Positions 5,734 through 27,836 of a stretch of 64,000 nt of DNA are shown piece after piece (position 1 is the stretch's first letter; the number at the start of each line of letters is the position of its first letter). The translations under genes and the position numbers were made by a program. The stretch lies in NCBI GenBank assembly GCA_028283825.1, contig JAPWJW010000003.1, forward strand, positions 1,798,501 to 1,862,500, written 5' to 3'. The notes under the pieces are model-generated. The model was not told the DNA's origin. It worked only from the letters and a program-made list of their open reading frames with translations, and searched no databases. Origin of the DNA: Azospirillaceae bacterium (GTDB taxonomy: Bacteria; Pseudomonadota; Alphaproteobacteria; Azospirillales; Azospirillaceae).

Positions 5734-6858
5734 TTACCCCACCGCCACCGCGGTCGGGCGGATTTCGCCGACGGTGTCGCCGCGCCGGCTGGTGATCGGG
5801 GCCACGGCCAGATGGCCGACACCGTCCCACACCGTGTCGGGCAGGACGCCCAGGCGCTTCAGCACCGCCGCCATGGCGGGACCGGAGGCGCGCGGCGCCC
5901 CGTCCTCGATCTTCAGGGCGATGCCCAGGCCGTGTTCCGGCAGCACGGCGCAACACACGCCCTCCGCCCCCGACTTCAGCAGCACGCGGGATTCCGCCGC
6001 GCGCATGAAGTCGGTGTCGAAGTTGCCGGTGCCGCCCACCAGTTCGGGGTGGGCTCCCCAAGCCCGGCGCAGGCGCGTCACAGCCTCCGCCCGGCGGTCG
6101 GGCAGGCAATCGGGATCGGCCAGGCGGGCCATGCCCAGGGCCAAGGCCCCCAGCGGCAGGCCGATGGTGGGGATGGAACAGCCGTCCACGCCCCAGGGCG
6201 CGCGACTGAGATCCTGGCCCGTCACCTGTTCGATGACGCCCAGGATGCGCTGCTGCACCGGGTGCTGGTAGCGGACATAACCCACCAGCTTCTCGCCCTT
6301 GTGCTTGGCCACCGCCAGGAAACCGGTGTGCTTGCCGGAACAGTTGTTGTGCAGGGCCGTGGGCTTTTCCCCCGTCGCCAGCAGGGCGGCGGCGGTGGGC
6401 TCATGCGTGGGCAGGTGGGAACCACATTCCAGATCGGCCACCGATAGGCCCAGCCGGTCCAGCCAGGCGGCCACGCGGGTGGTGTGCATCGCCTCCCCCT
6501 GGTGGGAGGCGCAGGCCAGCGCCAGTTCCTCATCCGTGACGGCGAAGGCGTCGGCCGCCCCGCTTTCGATCAGGGGGATGGCCTGCAAGGCCTTGTTGGA
6601 GGAGCGGGGGTAGACCAGCCCGTCCATGTCGCCCCAATGCGCCACTACCCGGGCGTCGGCATCGACCACCACCACCCGGCCGCGATGGCGGGATTCCACC
6701 ATGGAACCGCGCGTCACCTCCACCAGGATGGGCGCGTCCGACCGGTCGGGAATGTCCACCTGGCGCACGGTGGGCGCCGGTTCAGCACCATGGCCGCCGC
6801 AGCAGCCATCCTGGTGGTCATGGCCGTCGTGGGAATGATCGTCGGTGTGGTCGTGCAT
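5734..6858 (-). CDS. L-asparaginase II (AnsA/ReAV class) with His-rich N-terminal tail
   Basis: 374 aa. The asparaginase-II domain starts near residue 43 (ILVEVTRGSMVESRHRG) and contains the Ser-x-x-Lys element RSSNKALQ, CASHQGE, NNCSGKHTGFL and the GGTGNFDTDFM stretch. Enzymes of this class hydrolyse asparagine to aspartate and ammonia; the characterised Rhizobium member binds zinc through conserved cysteines in the second and third of these motifs. The first 24 residues are an added tail with seven His, six Asp and two Cys. The ATG at 6858 gives this tail; the next in-frame ATG is inside the domain. A GTG after the tail is possible but has no ribosome-binding site. Confidence 0.88.
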   Translation of the reverse strand: MHDHTDDHSHDGHDHQDGCCGGHGAEPAPTVRQVDIPDRSDAPILVEVTRGSMVESRHRGRVVVVDADARVVAHWGDMDGLVYPRSSNKALQAIPLIESGAADAFAVTDEELALACASHQGEAMHTTRVAAWLDRLGLSVADLECGSHLPTHEPTAAALLATGEKPTALHNNCSGKHTGFLAVAKHKGEKLVGYVRYQHPVQQRILGVIEQVTGQDLSRAPWGVDGCSIPTIGLPLGALALGMARLADPDCLPDRRAEAVTRLRRAWGAHPELVGGTGNFDTDFMRAAESRVLLKSGAEGVCCAVLPEHGLGIALKIEDGAPRASGPAMAAVLKRLGVLPDTVWDGVGHLAVAPITSRRGDTVGEIRPTAVAVG

Positions 6859-7000
6859 GGCCGGCCGCTTCGCCTTCAGGGGAATGTGAAAGGGGTTTCA
6901 GATCGCCTGCGTTCTCCCCCGGGCGGGGCATGACTGCAATCCTGATTCCCGGGGGGCTGGAACCTTGCCCAAGCGGCTTGGCTTGTGCAAGGTGCGCGAC

Positions 7001-7570
7001 ATGCGTGGATATTTCGCCCTGGGCGCCGAGGGGATCAGCAAGTCGGGCAATATCGGGACCATCATGCGCTCCGGCCATGCGTTCGGGGCGAGCTTCGTGT
7101 TCACCGTGAACGCGGCGCTGGACCTGGATGAGGTCAACCGGGTGGACACATCCGGCGGCCAGGACCATGTCCCCCTCTACACCTACCCCAACGTCGCGGC
7201 GATGGCGCTGCCCGAGGGCTGCACCCTGGTGGGTGTGGAACTGACGGACGACGCGGTGGATCTGCCCAGCTTCCGCCACCCCCTGCGGGCGGCCTATGTG
7301 CTGGGGCCGGAGCGCGGCAGTTTGTCGCCGGCCATGCAGGCGCGCTGCGACCACATCATCAAAATCCCCACCAAGTTCTGCGTCAACGTGGCCGTGGCCG
7401 CCGCCATCGTCATGTACGACCGCATGATCTCGCTTGGCCGTTTTGCTGAGCGTCCGGTGCGTGTCGGCGGCCCGGCGGGCCCGGCGCCCACCCATGTCCA
7501 TGGCCGGCAGAAGGTCCGCAACGTGGACAGCAAGCGCATGCGCCCCCTGCTGGGCGACTGGCAAGAATAG
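7001..7570 (+). CDS. SpoU/TrmH-family RNA methyltransferase
   Basis: 189 aa from the ATG at 7001, which has CAAGG nine bases upstream; an upstream TTG at 6965 is less likely. The product has the SPOUT-fold markers GNIGTIMRSGHAFGASFVF near the start, then YVLGPERGSLSP and IPTKFCVNVAVAAAIVMYDR, which form the knotted SAM site. These enzymes methylate ribose 2'-O of tRNA or rRNA. The C-terminal 30 residues are basic. It is the only gene on its strand locally and has its own upstream region of about 140 bases shared with the divergent asparaginase. Confidence 0.88.
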   Translation: MRGYFALGAEGISKSGNIGTIMRSGHAFGASFVFTVNAALDLDEVNRVDTSGGQDHVPLYTYPNVAAMALPEGCTLVGVELTDDAVDLPSFRHPLRAAYVLGPERGSLSPAMQARCDHIIKIPTKFCVNVAVAAAIVMYDRMISLGRFAERPVRVGGPAGPAPTHVHGRQKVRNVDSKRMRPLLGDWQE

Positions 7571-23172: not shown

Positions 23173-24452
23173 TGGGGCGGGCCGCCTTGATCCTGGCCCT
23201 GGCGGCCGGCCTGATGGCCGGTACCGCCGGGGCCGCCATGTCCGCCAATCCCGACAAACCGGTTCTGGAGCGGGTGGTTATGCTGACCCGCCACGGCGTG
23301 CGGTCCCCCACCAAGGGACCGGCGGAACTGCGCCGCCTGTCCGACCAGGATTGGCCGACCTGGCCGGTGGGGCGGGGCATCCTCACCCCCCATGGCGCCG
23401 ACACCATCCGTCAGTTGGGCACCTATCTGGGCGATGCCTACCGCCGGCGCGGCCTGCTGGGCGGTGACCGCTGCCCGGCCACTGGCGCCGTCTTCGCCTG
23501 GGGTGACAGCGGCGACCAGCGCACCCGCGCCAGCGCCCAGGCCCTGCTGGACGGCCTGGTGCCGGACTGCGGCCTGATGGCCCAGGGCCGGACGCCGGAT
23601 GCCAAGGACCCGTTGTTCGACGCGGCCAGCAGCGGCGCCTGCCCCATGGACGGGGCGGAGGCCACCCGCGCCCTGGCGGCGGCCAACGGCGGCGACATCA
23701 GCGCCATCCCCGCCGCCGTGGCCGCGGCCCTGGCCGCCCTGGTCCAGGTGGTGGCGCCGGAGGCCTGCAAGCCCGGTGCGTCCGGCCCCTGCTTCGCCGC
23801 CGGCCCCGCCAAGGTGGTGGACAAGGGTGGTGAGGTGAAGATGGACGGCCCCCTGGCGCGCGGCGCCATGCTGGCCGAAAGCCTGTTCCTGGAATACGTC
23901 CAGGGCTTCCCGGCATCCCAGGTGGGCTGGGGCCGGGCGGCGACGCCGTCGGTCCTGGCCGCCATCATGCCGGTGCACGACTACCAGGCTGACCTGACCC
24001 GCCGCACGCCCTACATCGCCAGCCACAATGGCGCCCTGCTGGCCCGGCAGATCGTGGCGGCGGTGACGGGGCAGACGCCCACGGACAGCCATTTGGCACC
24101 GGTGCCGGCAGCGGCCAAGCTGGTCTCCATCCTGGGGCACGACACCAACCTGTCCAATGTGGCCGGCATCCTGGGCGTGGACTGGACCCTCCCCAACCAG
24201 CCGGACAAGACCGCCCCCGACACCACCCTGGCGTTCGAGGTCAGCCGTGAGCCCGCCACGGGCAAACGCTATGTCCAGGTCGTCCTCTATTACCAGACGC
24301 TGGACGACCTGCGGCAAGGGGCCGCCCTGACGCCGGACCACCCGGCGGGTAAGGTGGTCCTGTCCTTGCCCGCCTGCGGCGGCGACCGCTGCACGGTGGC
24401 GGATTTCGCCGCCCTGGTGCGCAAGGCAGTGCCGGCGGCCTGCTGGCACTGA
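23172..24452 (+). CDS. exported histidine acid phosphatase / phytase (AppA type)
   Basis: 426 aa. The start codon overlaps the receptor stop (TGATG). The signal peptide is ALILALAAGLMAGTAGAA. The catalytic motif RHGVRSPTKGP holds the nucleophilic His and phosphate-binding Arg residues, and the proton donor appears in SILGHDTNLSNVAG (the HD motif, here extended as HDTN). Such enzymes release phosphate stepwise from phytate or other phosphomonoesters in the periplasm. Co-translation with a TonB receptor and a Pho-box suggest an uptake-and-cleave system for organic phosphate. Confidence 0.9.
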   Translation: MGRAALILALAAGLMAGTAGAAMSANPDKPVLERVVMLTRHGVRSPTKGPAELRRLSDQDWPTWPVGRGILTPHGADTIRQLGTYLGDAYRRRGLLGGDRCPATGAVFAWGDSGDQRTRASAQALLDGLVPDCGLMAQGRTPDAKDPLFDAASSGACPMDGAEATRALAAANGGDISAIPAAVAAALAALVQVVAPEACKPGASGPCFAAGPAKVVDKGGEVKMDGPLARGAMLAESLFLEYVQGFPASQVGWGRAATPSVLAAIMPVHDYQADLTRRTPYIASHNGALLARQIVAAVTGQTPTDSHLAPVPAAAKLVSILGHDTNLSNVAGILGVDWTLPNQPDKTAPDTTLAFEVSREPATGKRYVQVVLYYQTLDDLRQGAALTPDHPAGKVVLSLPACGGDRCTVADFAALVRKAVPAACWH

Positions 24453-24585: not shown

Positions 24586-25228
24586 GGCCGGTAAAGTCCG
24601 AGTCCCGTTCCGGCCCACTCTCATGCAACCCTTTCGAGTCGCCGGTGCCGGCATCACCGATGCCCCGGTTTTCCTGGCATCGCGGGGGCGGCCTGATCCA
24701 AGGCCGGTAAAGTCCGAGTCCAGGAAAAAGTCGGCCGGCGGGACAGCCCCCCGTCCACGGCAGGGCCGGTAAAGTCCGTGTGGATCCGCCCCGCCCCAAT
24801 CTGGGCCGCGCCGACACCCACCAGCGCGCCCATCGATCAGGCCGCCGGGCGAACCGAAGGCCGGGAAAGTCCGGCTTTGTCGTGCCAGGGCCGGTAAAGT
24901 CCGTGCCCGATCCGCGAGTCGAGCCCGGTTTCGAGTCCCGTGGAGTCGCCGGCGGGATCCCGCAAGAGTCGATTCGTCACGATTCGGCACGGACTTTACC
25001 GGCCACAGTCGACTTACCCACAAGCGGGGCCGGTTTCCCCACGGACTCTACCGGCCATGAAATGAGGGGACGCCACACCGGCGCATACAAAGACGACTTG
25101 TCCCACGGATTTTACCGGCCCTGATCCGGACTCTACCGGCCCGACTCGGCTTTATTTCCCGGACCTGACCGGCACATCAAATAACAGACTCCAAATACCC
25201 CACAAATAGCGGCGGCCGGTAAAGTCCG
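24586..25228. other. iteron-type replication origin region
   Basis: The 15-mer GGCCGGTAAAGTCCG occurs exactly at 24586, 24702, 24764, 24889 and 25214, with a one-base variant (GGGAAAG) at 24859. It occurs inverted at 24990 (exact), 25042, 25106 and 25127 (one or two changes each), and a degenerate inverted copy lies at about 25160. A DnaA-box-like TTACCCACA (one mismatch to TTATCCACA) is at 25014-25022. An AT-rich stretch is at 25171-25205. The RepA-like gene follows. Mixed direct and inverted iterons, a DnaA box and an AT-rich segment next to an initiator gene are the parts of a plasmid-type origin. Small open frames within this stretch look spurious. Confidence 0.85.
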
Positions 25229-25305
25229 ACCTAGATTTAGTGGATTGGCTTTGGAACACTCCGCCCCATCGAAAAGACGAACCGAACCGGCGGAGGGCAC
25301 GGGCT

Positions 25306-26238
25306 ATGGCCGACATTCATCGTTTGATCCTGGAACACGGCGTGGACCGGGCGCGTGAGATGGCGACCAGCAAGAGCGGGCGCAACCTGGTGGACGTGGC
25401 CGCCGCCATGCTGGCCCAGGAAGAGGACAGCATGGGCATCACCCATGCCGGCTTCGCCCTGACCAGCCTGCCCCACCGGTCCATCGACAAGGCGGCGGAG
25501 CCGGAATACCACCGTAAGGAAACCGGTCGCTGCACCCTGATCGTGCAGAGCGGCCGGCACGCCGACGGCAGCCTGGTGGGCGTGCCCTATGGCGCCAAGG
25601 CGCGCATGATCCTGCTGTATCTGCAGACCGAGGCCTTGAAGACCAATTCCCGCCAAGTGGAACTGGGCAAGAGCTGGCATTCCTGGCTGAAGGCCATGGG
25701 CGAAAGCCCCGGCGGCAAGACCTATCGCCTGGTCATGGAACAGGCGCAGCGCATCACCGCCTGCAGCCTGCAATTCCTGTGGGAGACGGACGCGTCGGTC
25801 ACCCGGCAGAACGCCGGCTTCGTCAACAACTCCATCCTGTTCAAGGCCAGCCCCGACCAGCGCCACGTGGCCCTGTTCCAGGACGTGATCGAGTTGAACG
25901 AAAGCTTCTACGACAGCCTGAAGCAGCACGCCGTGCCGGTGTCGGAGGCGGCCTTGCGCCACATCAGCGCCAGCAGCACCGCCATCGACGTCTACATCTG
26001 GCTGGCCTATCGCCTGCACGTGCTGAACCAGACCACGCCGGTGCGCTGGGCGGCGCTCCGCCGCCAGTTCGGCGAGCATTACGCCAAGCTCAGCCACTTC
26101 AAGCCCGTGTTCCTGGACGCGCTGGCCCTGGCCACCGCCGTCTACCCGGAAGCGAAGGTGGAAATCGCCGACGACGGCATCGTCCTGCACCCTTCGCGCC
26201 CGCCCATCGCCAAGCGCGAAGCGGCGTTGATCGCCTGA
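25306..26238 (+). CDS. RepA-like plasmid replication initiator (RepA_C family)
   Basis: 310 aa from the ATG at 25306, with GGAGGG eight bases upstream; an ATG at 25240 would add 22 residues but has no ribosome-binding site and nearly abuts the last iteron. The product contains PYGAKARMILLYLQTEALKT, SRQVELGKSWHSWLKAMG, LNESFYDSLKQHAVPVSEAA and IDVYIWLAYRLHVL, characteristic of the winged-helix RepA_C initiators of broad-range plasmids in alphaproteobacteria. It should bind the upstream iterons and open the origin. The iteron at 25214 lies 78 bases before the start and could serve autorepression. No parAB genes are within the window. Confidence 0.87.
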   Translation: MADIHRLILEHGVDRAREMATSKSGRNLVDVAAAMLAQEEDSMGITHAGFALTSLPHRSIDKAAEPEYHRKETGRCTLIVQSGRHADGSLVGVPYGAKARMILLYLQTEALKTNSRQVELGKSWHSWLKAMGESPGGKTYRLVMEQAQRITACSLQFLWETDASVTRQNAGFVNNSILFKASPDQRHVALFQDVIELNESFYDSLKQHAVPVSEAALRHISASSTAIDVYIWLAYRLHVLNQTTPVRWAALRRQFGEHYAKLSHFKPVFLDALALATAVYPEAKVEIADDGIVLHPSRPPIAKREAALIA

Positions 26239-26300: not shown

Positions 26301-27836
26301 GTGGGGCGGGTGGTAGCGCGGGTCTCGACGGTGGCCTTCCAAGGCGTGGACGTCTTGGACATCGACGTCCAGGTGCAGATGTCGGGTGGGCAGGTGGCGT
26401 TCACCATCGTCGGCCTGCCGGACAAGGCGGTGGCCGAAAGCCGGGAGCGGGTGCGGGCGGCGCTGCACGCCCTGGGCCTGGCCCTGCCGCCCAAGCGCAT
26501 CACCGTGAACCTGGCGCCGGCCGATGTGCAGAAGGAAGGGTCGCATTACGACCTGCCCATCGCCATTGCCCTGCTGACCGTCATGGGCATCCTGCCCGAT
26601 GAGGACATCCGCGAATTCTGCGCCCTGGGCGAATTGGCACTGGATGGCGCCCTGACGGCCGTGGCCGGCACCCTGCCCGCCGCCATCCATGCCGTCGCCA
26701 CCGACCGGGGCCTGATCTGCCCGGCGGCCTGTGGGGGTGAGGCCGCCTGGGCCGGGGAGCTGGAGGTGCTGGCGCCCCGCACCCTGCTGGAGCTGATCAA
26801 CCATTTCAAGGGCACCCAGCTGCTGTCGCGGCCCGAGCCCAGGATGGAAGAGGACGATGGCGGCCAAGTCCTTGATATGGCGGATATTAAAGGCCAGGAG
26901 ACGGCAAAGCGGGCAATCGAGATTGCCGCCTGTGGCGCCCACCATCTGCTGATGGTGGGGCCGCCGGGATCGGGCAAGTCCATGCTGGCGGCGCGCCTGG
27001 CGGGATTACTGCCCCCGCTGGAACCGGCGGAGGCGCTGGACCTGTCCATGATCCATTCCGTGGCGGGCAAGCTGGACGGCGGGCGCCTGATGCGTCGCCG
27101 ACCGTTCAGGGATCCTCACCACAGCGCCAGCCTGCCGGCCCTGGTGGGTGGGGGCATGAAGGCCAAGCCGGGGGAGATCAGCCTGGCCCACCAGGGCGTG
27201 CTGTTCCTGGATGAATTGCCGGAATTCGCCCGCGCCACGCTGGAGGCCCTGCGCCAGCCGCTGGAGACCGGCCGGGCCACGGTGGCGCGGGCCAACGGCC
27301 ATGTCACCTATCCCGCGCGGGTGCAATTGGTGGCAGCCATGAACCCCTGCCGCTGCGGCCATCTGGGGGATGAGGCGCAAGCCTGCGGCCGGGCGCCCAA
27401 GTGTGCTGCCGACTATCAGTCCAAAATCTCCGGCCCGCTGTTCGACCGCATCGACCTGCACGTGGACGTGCCAGCCGTCAGCGCCGCCGACCTGTCCCTG
27501 CCCCCGCCACGCGAGACCAGCGCCACCGTGGCCGCCCGCGTGGCCCTGGCCCGGGGCATCCAGGCGGCGCGCTACGCCGCCCTTTCCAAGCCCGGCCAAC
27601 CGACCATCCGCACCAATGCCGAGGCCGATGGCGAACTGCTGGAAAAGGTGGCCGCCCCCGACACCGCCGGCCGCGCCCTGCTGACCGAAGCCGCCGACCG
27701 CCTGCGCCTGTCGGCGCGGGGATATCACCGCGTCCTGCGCGTGGCCCGCACCCTGGCCGACATGGAAGCGGCCGACACCGTGCGCCGCGTGCACATCGCC
27801 GAGGCGCTAAGTTATCGTCGGGTGGCGGTGCGGTGA
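26301..27836 (+). CDS. comM: YifB/ComM-family Mg-chelatase-like AAA+ ATPase
   Basis: 511 aa from a GTG at 26301. The N-terminal Lon-like domain is TVAFQGVDVLDIDVQVQMSG and HYDLPIAIALL. The ATPase core has Walker A VGPPGSGKSMLAARL, Walker B GVLFLDELPEF, and a sensor region RVQLVAAMNPCRCGH with an added cysteine pair. ComM is a hexameric helicase that promotes branch migration during DNA uptake and recombination; homologues occur widely outside naturally competent species. It lies just after repA but with its own start region and codon use like the rest. Confidence 0.92.
   Translation: MGRVVARVSTVAFQGVDVLDIDVQVQMSGGQVAFTIVGLPDKAVAESRERVRAALHALGLALPPKRITVNLAPADVQKEGSHYDLPIAIALLTVMGILPDEDIREFCALGELALDGALTAVAGTLPAAIHAVATDRGLICPAACGGEAAWAGELEVLAPRTLLELINHFKGTQLLSRPEPRMEEDDGGQVLDMADIKGQETAKRAIEIAACGAHHLLMVGPPGSGKSMLAARLAGLLPPLEPAEALDLSMIHSVAGKLDGGRLMRRRPFRDPHHSASLPALVGGGMKAKPGEISLAHQGVLFLDELPEFARATLEALRQPLETGRATVARANGHVTYPARVQLVAAMNPCRCGHLGDEAQACGRAPKCAADYQSKISGPLFDRIDLHVDVPAVSAADLSLPPPRETSATVAARVALARGIQAARYAALSKPGQPTIRTNAEADGELLEKVAAPDTAGRALLTEAADRLRLSARGYHRVLRVARTLADMEAADTVRRVHIAEALSYRRVAVR

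Follow-up and report, generated by a model that had tools for sequence, protein, structure and literature searches.

A conserved plasmid-type RepA/iteron module near oriC on the main chromosome of Nitrospirillum

Bacterial chromosomes are, to our knowledge, held to use one origin of replication. The natural exceptions that we found in print, in the portions of those papers available to us, are individual strains with replicon fusions. According to the accessible text, Vibrio cholerae NSCV1 and NSCV2 carry oriC and an iteron-type plasmid origin on one fused chromosome, and in such Vibrio fusions one origin is silenced or active depending on the position of crtS (PMC6284228). Both origins are described as active in the natural dicentric chromosomes of Agrobacterium, as far as the available sections go (PMC12153318), while extracts of two further papers report that a plasmid-type RepA origin can drive unidirectional replication of a Pseudoalteromonas chromid (PMC7858055) and that cyanobacterial dnaA mutants replicate from an integrated plasmid origin (PMC7198777). 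For the Alphaproteobacteria, the part of a 2018 review at hand places iteron origins only in small plasmids (PMC6090056), and that of the Azospirillum genome paper says no more than that a typical oriC is found on the largest replicon (PMC3899980). A genus-wide iteron origin lacking par genes and located beside oriC was not found in the literature searched, which took in few subscription papers and some texts only in part.

The locus described here is closest to the RepA_C iteron plasmids and megaplasmids of the Rhodospirillales, with which it shares the initiator family, repeats 5' of repA (at most loci scanned) and a GANTC-rich 5' region (9 of 14 other loci). Plasmid RepAs of Azospirillum, Roseomonas and Rhodospirillum rubrum are about 45-53% identical to it among the matches listed, and of seven RepA regions inspected, three have ParA- and ParB-like genes beside repA and one a ParA-like gene alone. 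Those plasmids are separate replicons, whereas the module of Nitrospirillum, a plant-associated bacterium, lies on the main chromosome, has no par genes and has its own iteron sequence.

Anatomy and chromosomal setting of the module

The window, i.e. the whole stretch of 64,000 nucleotides that was analysed, corresponds to positions 1798501-1862500 of contig C3 in genome G000, which comprises 7.16 Mb in five contigs. Contig C3 (2,662,019 bp) was covered without gaps from 1.62 to 2.16 Mb and sampled elsewhere, and genes were predicted with a home-made caller that uses G+C by codon position. On the + strand, at window positions 25306-26238, lies repA, with an ATG start and a product of 310 aa that matches the RepA_C profile PF04796 in a profile search (E 8.7e-25; score 88 bits, cut-off 26). 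It is the only RepA_C gene found in the whole window genome, in which RepC gave no match at E <= 0.01 and one RPA-family protein passed the cut-off, on C1; for C2, C4 and C5 these searches brought up no initiator of any of the three families. A low-confidence structure model of RepA (pLDDT 57) has its best PDB match in domains 2-3 of RctB at E 0.007, with none at E <= 0.001, and gives no more than a hint on whether RepA has the tandem winged helices of an initiator fold.

The 15-mer GGCCGGTAAAGTCCG, allowing up to three mismatches, matches 18 times in the window against 2.5 +/- 1.65 times in shuffles, a level reached in none of 100 shuffles, and 11 of the 18 matches are packed into the 643 bp of 24586-25228, six on the + and five on the - strand. 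The first five are on the + strand: iteron 1 (24586-24600), from the 15-mer scan; iteron 2 (24702-24716), exact, from the same scan and kept in seven genomes; and, in both the scan and the seven-genome alignment, iteron 3 (24764-24778, exact), iteron 4 (24859-24873, one mismatch, with more degenerate copies in the relatives) and iteron 5 (24889-24903, exact). Scan and alignment likewise place five inverted copies, namely the exact iteron 6 (24990-25004), iterons 7 (25042-25056), 8 (25106-25120) and 9 (25127-25141), each with one mismatch and the seventh and ninth with a GANTC inside, and the degenerate iteron 10 (25160-25174, three mismatches). The exact iteron 11 (25214-25228, + strand) sits immediately 5' of repA. 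When the whole 7.16-Mb genome is scanned for GGCCGGTARARTCCG with at most one mismatch, 10 of the 12 sites fall at the repA locus, and the remaining two are background, because a reversed-pattern control yields 10 sites in total. An action of RepA in trans on another replicon was rejected on this distribution.

At 25014-25022 (+ strand, from the alignment) the window genome has TTACCCACA, one mismatch away from the perfect DnaA box TTATCCACA that occupies the same position in the other six Nitrospirillum genomes. The AT-richer block at 25136-25246, which includes the last iteron, is likely the unwinding element, and is modest, its lowest 50-mer having 46% G+C against 66-69% in local 2-kb windows. 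No par genes were seen adjoining repA when the ORF translations of the window were read by eye. Judged from sequence, RepA, the 11 iterons, the DnaA box and the AT-rich block together form a complete plasmid-type replication module. The preliminary description of this stretch, which had listed about ten copies of a 15-mer in both orientations, a DnaA-box-like site, an AT-rich segment and a RepA_C-family initiator within a region of core genes, was sound in all these respects.

The core-gene setting extends well beyond the window. The single dnaA of the genome is on C3, 41 kb to the left of the module, and 127-144 kb to the right runs the series hemH-hemE-gap-maf-aroE-coaE-dnaQ ... trmE-gidA-gidB-parA-parB (names from translations, without a database), with three parS-like sites 139-141 kb from the module. 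The orthologous sequence is in the databases as the complete chromosome 1 of N. viridazoti CBAmc, and the same repA gene is present in six deposited records, five of Nitrospirillum and one of Azospirillum sp. B4. Since the only dnaA, the hemE-oriC region and parAB are all on C3 and the ortholog is on CBAmc chromosome 1, the module is on the main chromosome, and the earlier suggestion that this replicon might be a chromid was discarded. Elsewhere on C3, segments at about 1.72-1.73 Mb and 2.06-2.08 Mb have 56-61% G+C against 68% for the chromosome and are probable islands.

GANTC is the CcrM motif, and 13 such sites occur in 24600-25191 (starts 24600, 24636, 24716, 24916, 24933, 24943, 24966, 24971, 24981, 25044, 25129, 25143 and 25187). 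Two are inside iterons, two overlap an iteron by one base and nine are outside, so the cluster is not merely a consequence of the iteron repeat. The 720 bp 5' of repA contain 10-13 sites in each of the seven Nitrospirillum genomes, where local density would predict 0.6-1.4; dinucleotide shuffles of the same 720 bp give about 3, the largest of 200 reaching 8-9, and the observed number is higher in each genome. Seven site columns are present in all seven. In each of the three genomes scanned over 400-480 kb (G000, G002 and G006) this cluster is the densest, with 12-13 sites against 6-9 in the next, or 18-21 times the mean density, and C3 of the window genome encodes a CcrM-type RAMA domain. Richness in GANTC is nevertheless not special to the chromosomal RepA copy: the nine GANTC-rich loci among the other 14 have 9-15 sites per 720 bp, only 5 are present in the nearest plasmid relative (G018), and two Azospirillum chromosomal RepA loci have 6 each, within the shuffle range. 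The hemE oriC has 1, 1, 1, 1, 2, 2 and 4 sites in the seven Nitrospirillum genomes, 2-11 in 17 other genomes of the family and 2-3 in three genomes outside it, a contrast that is a lead only, because these regions were cut by their distance from hemE, unaligned, and the genomes are not independent. In the accessible parts of two papers, repABC origins are described as GANTC-rich (PMC11514494, PMC6090056), and by analogy a CcrM link of the RepA module is probable.

Conservation and plasmid provenance

A search of 59 genomes for RepA, that of the window among them, gave homologues at E <= 1e-5 in 24. All seven Nitrospirillum genomes carry a copy, the six others being 97-98% identical to the window RepA, and in every one of them repA and the iterons, with nearly constant iteron spacing, lie between the same two genes, some gaps extending to about 2 kb. 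To the left of the iterons the next matched gene in all seven is a phosphatase-like gene (23173-24452, + strand, start uncertain), which is fast evolving (61-65% identity), and to the right of repA it is a yifB/comM-like gene (26301-27836, + strand), at 75 bp from repA in the window genome and up to about 1.7 kb in the relatives; both names are from translations. The comparison of the locus across relatives, which had been proposed at the outset, finds repA and iterons conserved at this site throughout the genus. In G000, G002 and G006, one of them a complete chromosome, two complete origins, the hemE oriC and the RepA/iteron module, are found on one contig, with repA 128-132 kb from the hemE oriC.

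RepA ranks fifth in identity among the 243 orthologs common to these three genomes in the stretches compared, with 97.9% against a median of 88.0%. Over 271 ortholog pairs of G000 and G006, its dN/dS is 0.053 against a median of 0.189 and its dN is the 12th lowest; the corresponding dN/dS ratios are 0.121 for DnaA, 0.094 for ParA, 0.069 for ParB and 0.128 for yifB. Constraint is also evident in the non-coding part, where 102 of 110 alignment columns of the AT-rich block stretch (194 of 271 in a wider stretch) are invariant in the seven genomes, and where iterons 2-11 have 319 invariant columns of 546 against 218 of 447 at the hemE oriC, in stretches picked after inspection of the alignments. 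In its core the RepA origin is more strongly conserved than the canonical hemE oriC, which itself keeps a conserved TTATCCACA box with its flanks in all seven genomes. Because of the low dN/dS and the near-invariant non-coding core in seven genomes, the module is not a decaying relic. Conservation of RepA above that of DnaA suggests an element captured long ago and still doing an important job; a different essential role of RepA and its sites, not connected with replication, would be expected to leave equal conservation. As a separate observation, the window genome lacks, at its hemE oriC, the near-perfect side boxes present in its relatives, and its DnaA box at the RepA origin is degenerate too.

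RepA matches 908 plasmid records, of which the best is the 454-kb plasmid of Indioceanicola profundi (NZ_CP030128.1; G018:C3), at 65.9% identity, where ParA- and ParB-like genes (read from translations) adjoin repA. In a tree of 35 rows, 33 of them different and with 13 of 30 inner branches unresolved, the Nitrospirillum RepA clade is sister to this plasmid RepA (support 100/99), and both group with G026:C37 and G023:C19 (98/89) and then with G003:C43 (99/96). In 12 other genera of the family, 22 yifB loci with flanks of up to 1.5 kb gave no RepA match beside yifB (G027 has no yifB match, and for the split gene of G012 the larger piece only was used); the RepA genes found in those genomes are on contigs other than that of yifB or, in G029 and G033, share its contig at a distance of at least 50 kb. 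Absence beside yifB in 12 other genera points to integration in the Nitrospirillum lineage. Of the readings put forward in the preliminary description, the one supported is a plasmid origin integrated into the chromosome, which on the best reading took place before Nitrospirillum radiated. The window iteron pattern has no copies at the 14 other RepA loci scanned, and an iteron core is common to the window and some related loci (GTAGAGTCC at G017:C5, AGAGTCCG at G003:C43). The latter, a contig of 16.7 kb in a Nitrospirillum genome, encodes a second RepA, 47% identical, together with ParA-like, resolvase-like and relaxase-like genes (names from translations), and is probably a resident plasmid.

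A comparable situation is found in Azospirillum. The RepA gene of A. ramasamyi (G033) is on contig C1, 189 kb from hemE on the same contig, with no par-like genes among the neighbours inspected, with repeats of its own (GTGGGGANAAGCG type, six copies within two mismatches) and with an AT-rich block that is conserved in the three genomes aligned. The copies of G022:C3 and G025:C22, near-identical to it in the tree, would also be chromosomal, to judge from neighbours common with G022 only, the hemE of G022 being on another contig. Between G033 and G022 RepA is 98.1% identical, against 60-93% for nine other matched frames of the region. G029:C1 carries a further copy with repeats, next to a glnD-like gene and 73 kb away from hemE. 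An asparaginase-like/RNA-methyltransferase-like gene pair (5734-7570 in the window, 18 kb from repA) is directly beside repA in G022:C3. On account of this pair, a common ancestor was considered for the chromosomal copies of Nitrospirillum and those of Azospirillum, and was rejected, as the RepA tree does not group them; with moderate confidence, the Azospirillum case is probably independent. The closeness to oriC (128, 189 and 73 kb) is suggestive only, because there are three cases and two were recognised through sharing the hemE contig. Contig G022:C1 (3,068,947 bp), which carries hemE, has three further RepA_C genes, one with ParA/ParB-like neighbours and one close to the RepA of a separate 438-kb contig of G033; it may have arisen by fusion of plasmids with a chromosome, or by a wrong join during assembly.

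Strand asymmetry and the dominant origin

Which origin has driven the chromosome was read from strand asymmetry, using T-A rates and two codon classifiers that were trained on the arms of G000 only (cross-validated AUC of the classifiers 0.78-0.81). In G000, four-fold T-A asymmetry is 0.37 in leading and 0.13 in lagging genes. The difference between plus and minus genes is -0.31, -0.31 and -0.23 in the repA-hemE interval of G000, G002 and G006, respectively, -0.22, -0.29 and -0.28 to the left of repA, and +0.31, +0.22 and +0.09 to the right of hemE. The best break in T-A, relative to hemE, lies at -2, +10 and +22 kb (2-lnL ranges -2 to 6, 2 to 22 and 6 to 38 kb); after correction for overdispersion, placing the single origin at repA costs lnL 48, 36 and 37 in the three genomes, and assuming two equal bidirectional origins costs 15, 12 and 12. 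Because the asymmetry switches at hemE and not at repA, the hemE oriC did most of the work, and because the interval equals the left arm in sign and size, rightward forks from repA contribute little, if anything. Equal firing of both origins was rejected, since T-A asymmetry and codon classifiers alike show an interval resembling the oriC-driven left arm. The DnaA-oriC at hemE is thus shown by sequence asymmetry to be the dominant origin over evolutionary time, and the earlier proposal that this lineage starts its chromosome with RepA does not hold for the main origin. Replication from repA in the leftward direction only would leave no trace in the T-A test.

Other signals are less sharp. The codon classifier gives -0.92, -0.52 and -0.75 for the half of the interval on the repA side, against -1.13, -1.18 and -1.06, a weaker signal within error. 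Minus-strand genes number 68-76 of about 100-110 in the interval, which fits leftward forks from oriC. The GC3 skew by gene strand is +0.002, +0.016 and -0.005 in the interval (each +/- about 0.02; three genomes) and -0.023 to -0.062 to the left of repA; a flat value in the interval would, alone, fit replication from both sides, and is given less weight because GC asymmetry near oriC is weak on the other side too. Cumulative GC skew, a check recommended at the outset along with a search for dnaA and parAB, placed the origin only loosely (lowest at 1.90-1.95 Mb, slope near flat from 1.83 Mb); the two loci were located on C3.

Proposed role and comparison with known systems

We give an even chance to the reading that strong selection has maintained the integrated plasmid origin as a working auxiliary origin, firing rarely, late or one-way and probably gated by methylation. 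In the ancestor of Nitrospirillum, a plasmid module would have become inserted in the main chromosome beside yifB, about 130 kb from oriC, and would have lost, or never had, partition genes. RepA would bind the iterons and, with DnaA where the box is kept, open the AT-rich block, CcrM methylation of the GANTC cluster gating initiation. Use of this origin would be rare, late or one-way leftwards, away from oriC and along with the passing oriC fork, because bidirectional firing in each cycle together with oriC would reverse the asymmetry beside repA. The degenerate DnaA box of the window genome counts against an auxiliary origin.

Strong conservation with no trace of bidirectional replication from the repA site could also mean that the module no longer fires, and that RepA and iterons have been exapted as a regulatory or timing device, a nucleoprotein complex that would sense methylation or fork passage, or control nearby genes or oriC. 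The GANTC cluster is in keeping with this, as is the fact that RepA-type proteins usually repress their own gene, but the full origin anatomy, with the AT-rich block and, in six of seven genomes, the DnaA box, exceeds what autoregulation needs, and the genome scan shows no convincing RepA sites away from the locus, which has 10 of the 12 near-exact sites, the two others being background; we regard exaptation, the chief rival of the auxiliary-origin reading, as possible, though on the unlikely side. A resident incompatibility barrier, in which RepA and iterons of the chromosome would interfere with any same-group plasmid entering the cell, seems improbable: related RepA plasmids are common, judging from the 908 matching records, one member of the genus has the 47% identical RepA with a ParA-like gene on a small contig, and the cores GTAGAGTCC (G017:C5) and AGAGTCCG (G003:C43) are common with the window iteron, yet the window iteron pattern is absent from all 14 other RepA loci scanned, and conservation above that of DnaA is hard to explain through plasmid exclusion alone.

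It is very improbable that the RepA origin serves the chromosome as its principal origin, or as an equal bidirectional one. In favour of this, it is more conserved than the hemE oriC, GC3 skew in the interval does not differ between the strands in three genomes, and GANTC is scarce at the hemE oriC of the genus (1-4, against 2-11 in 17 family genomes); however, three genomes outside the family also have just 2-3, the T-A break is near hemE, with lnL 36-48 against repA and 12-15 against two equal origins, and the hemE oriC keeps its TTATCCACA box and flanks in all seven genomes. A dormant remnant of an integrated plasmid, which the preliminary description had allowed for, would fit the lack of par genes seen beside repA, main replication from oriC and the mutated DnaA box of the window strain, but is scarcely credible for a module that is among the most conserved sequences of its region (dN/dS 0.053, near-invariant non-coding core) and present at the same position in seven of seven genus members; nor is an assembly artefact, with an identical site in seven assemblies, one a complete chromosome.

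A bolder version of the auxiliary-origin reading, which we think unlikely, is that the main chromosome of Nitrospirillum has, genus-wide and stably, two unrelated initiators, with DnaA acting at oriC and a CcrM-licensed RepA/iteron origin at 130 kb distance firing one-way, in the direction leading away from oriC, in the normal cell cycle. If true, Nitrospirillum would have a bacterial chromosome with more than one origin, conserved since ancient times, that arose through capture of a plasmid origin, repeated in Azospirillum; some archaeal chromosome origins are thought to come from capture. The system lets one test whether a second initiator near oriC is tolerated or silenced, whether CcrM methylation gates an iteron origin, and whether a secondary origin becomes essential without partition genes.

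The known systems, as far as the sections available to us describe them, differ in several ways. The Vibrio NSCV1 and NSCV2 cases are individual strains with whole-replicon fusions, whereas the Nitrospirillum case is genus-wide and old, and concerns an origin module alone, near oriC. Agrobacterium likewise has two origins per chromosome, with its plasmid-type origin under CcrM/GANTC control, but that origin is of the repABC type, the partition systems are essential, both origins are active and the arms are balanced (PMC12153318, PMC11514494); the Nitrospirillum module is of the iteron type, has no second par, lies 130 kb from oriC and leaves no trace of equal use. The Pseudoalteromonas origin belongs to a separate chromid, and its RepA is described, in the text at hand, as lacking significant similarity outside the genus (PMC7858055). 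The cyanobacterial case is a laboratory suppressor event in which the start is shifted from oriC (PMC7198777), while the oriC of Nitrospirillum is intact and dominant. Compared with all of these, Nitrospirillum would stand out in having kept a plasmid origin beside oriC through the radiation of the genus, under a constraint above that on DnaA, with a similar, separate capture in Azospirillum.
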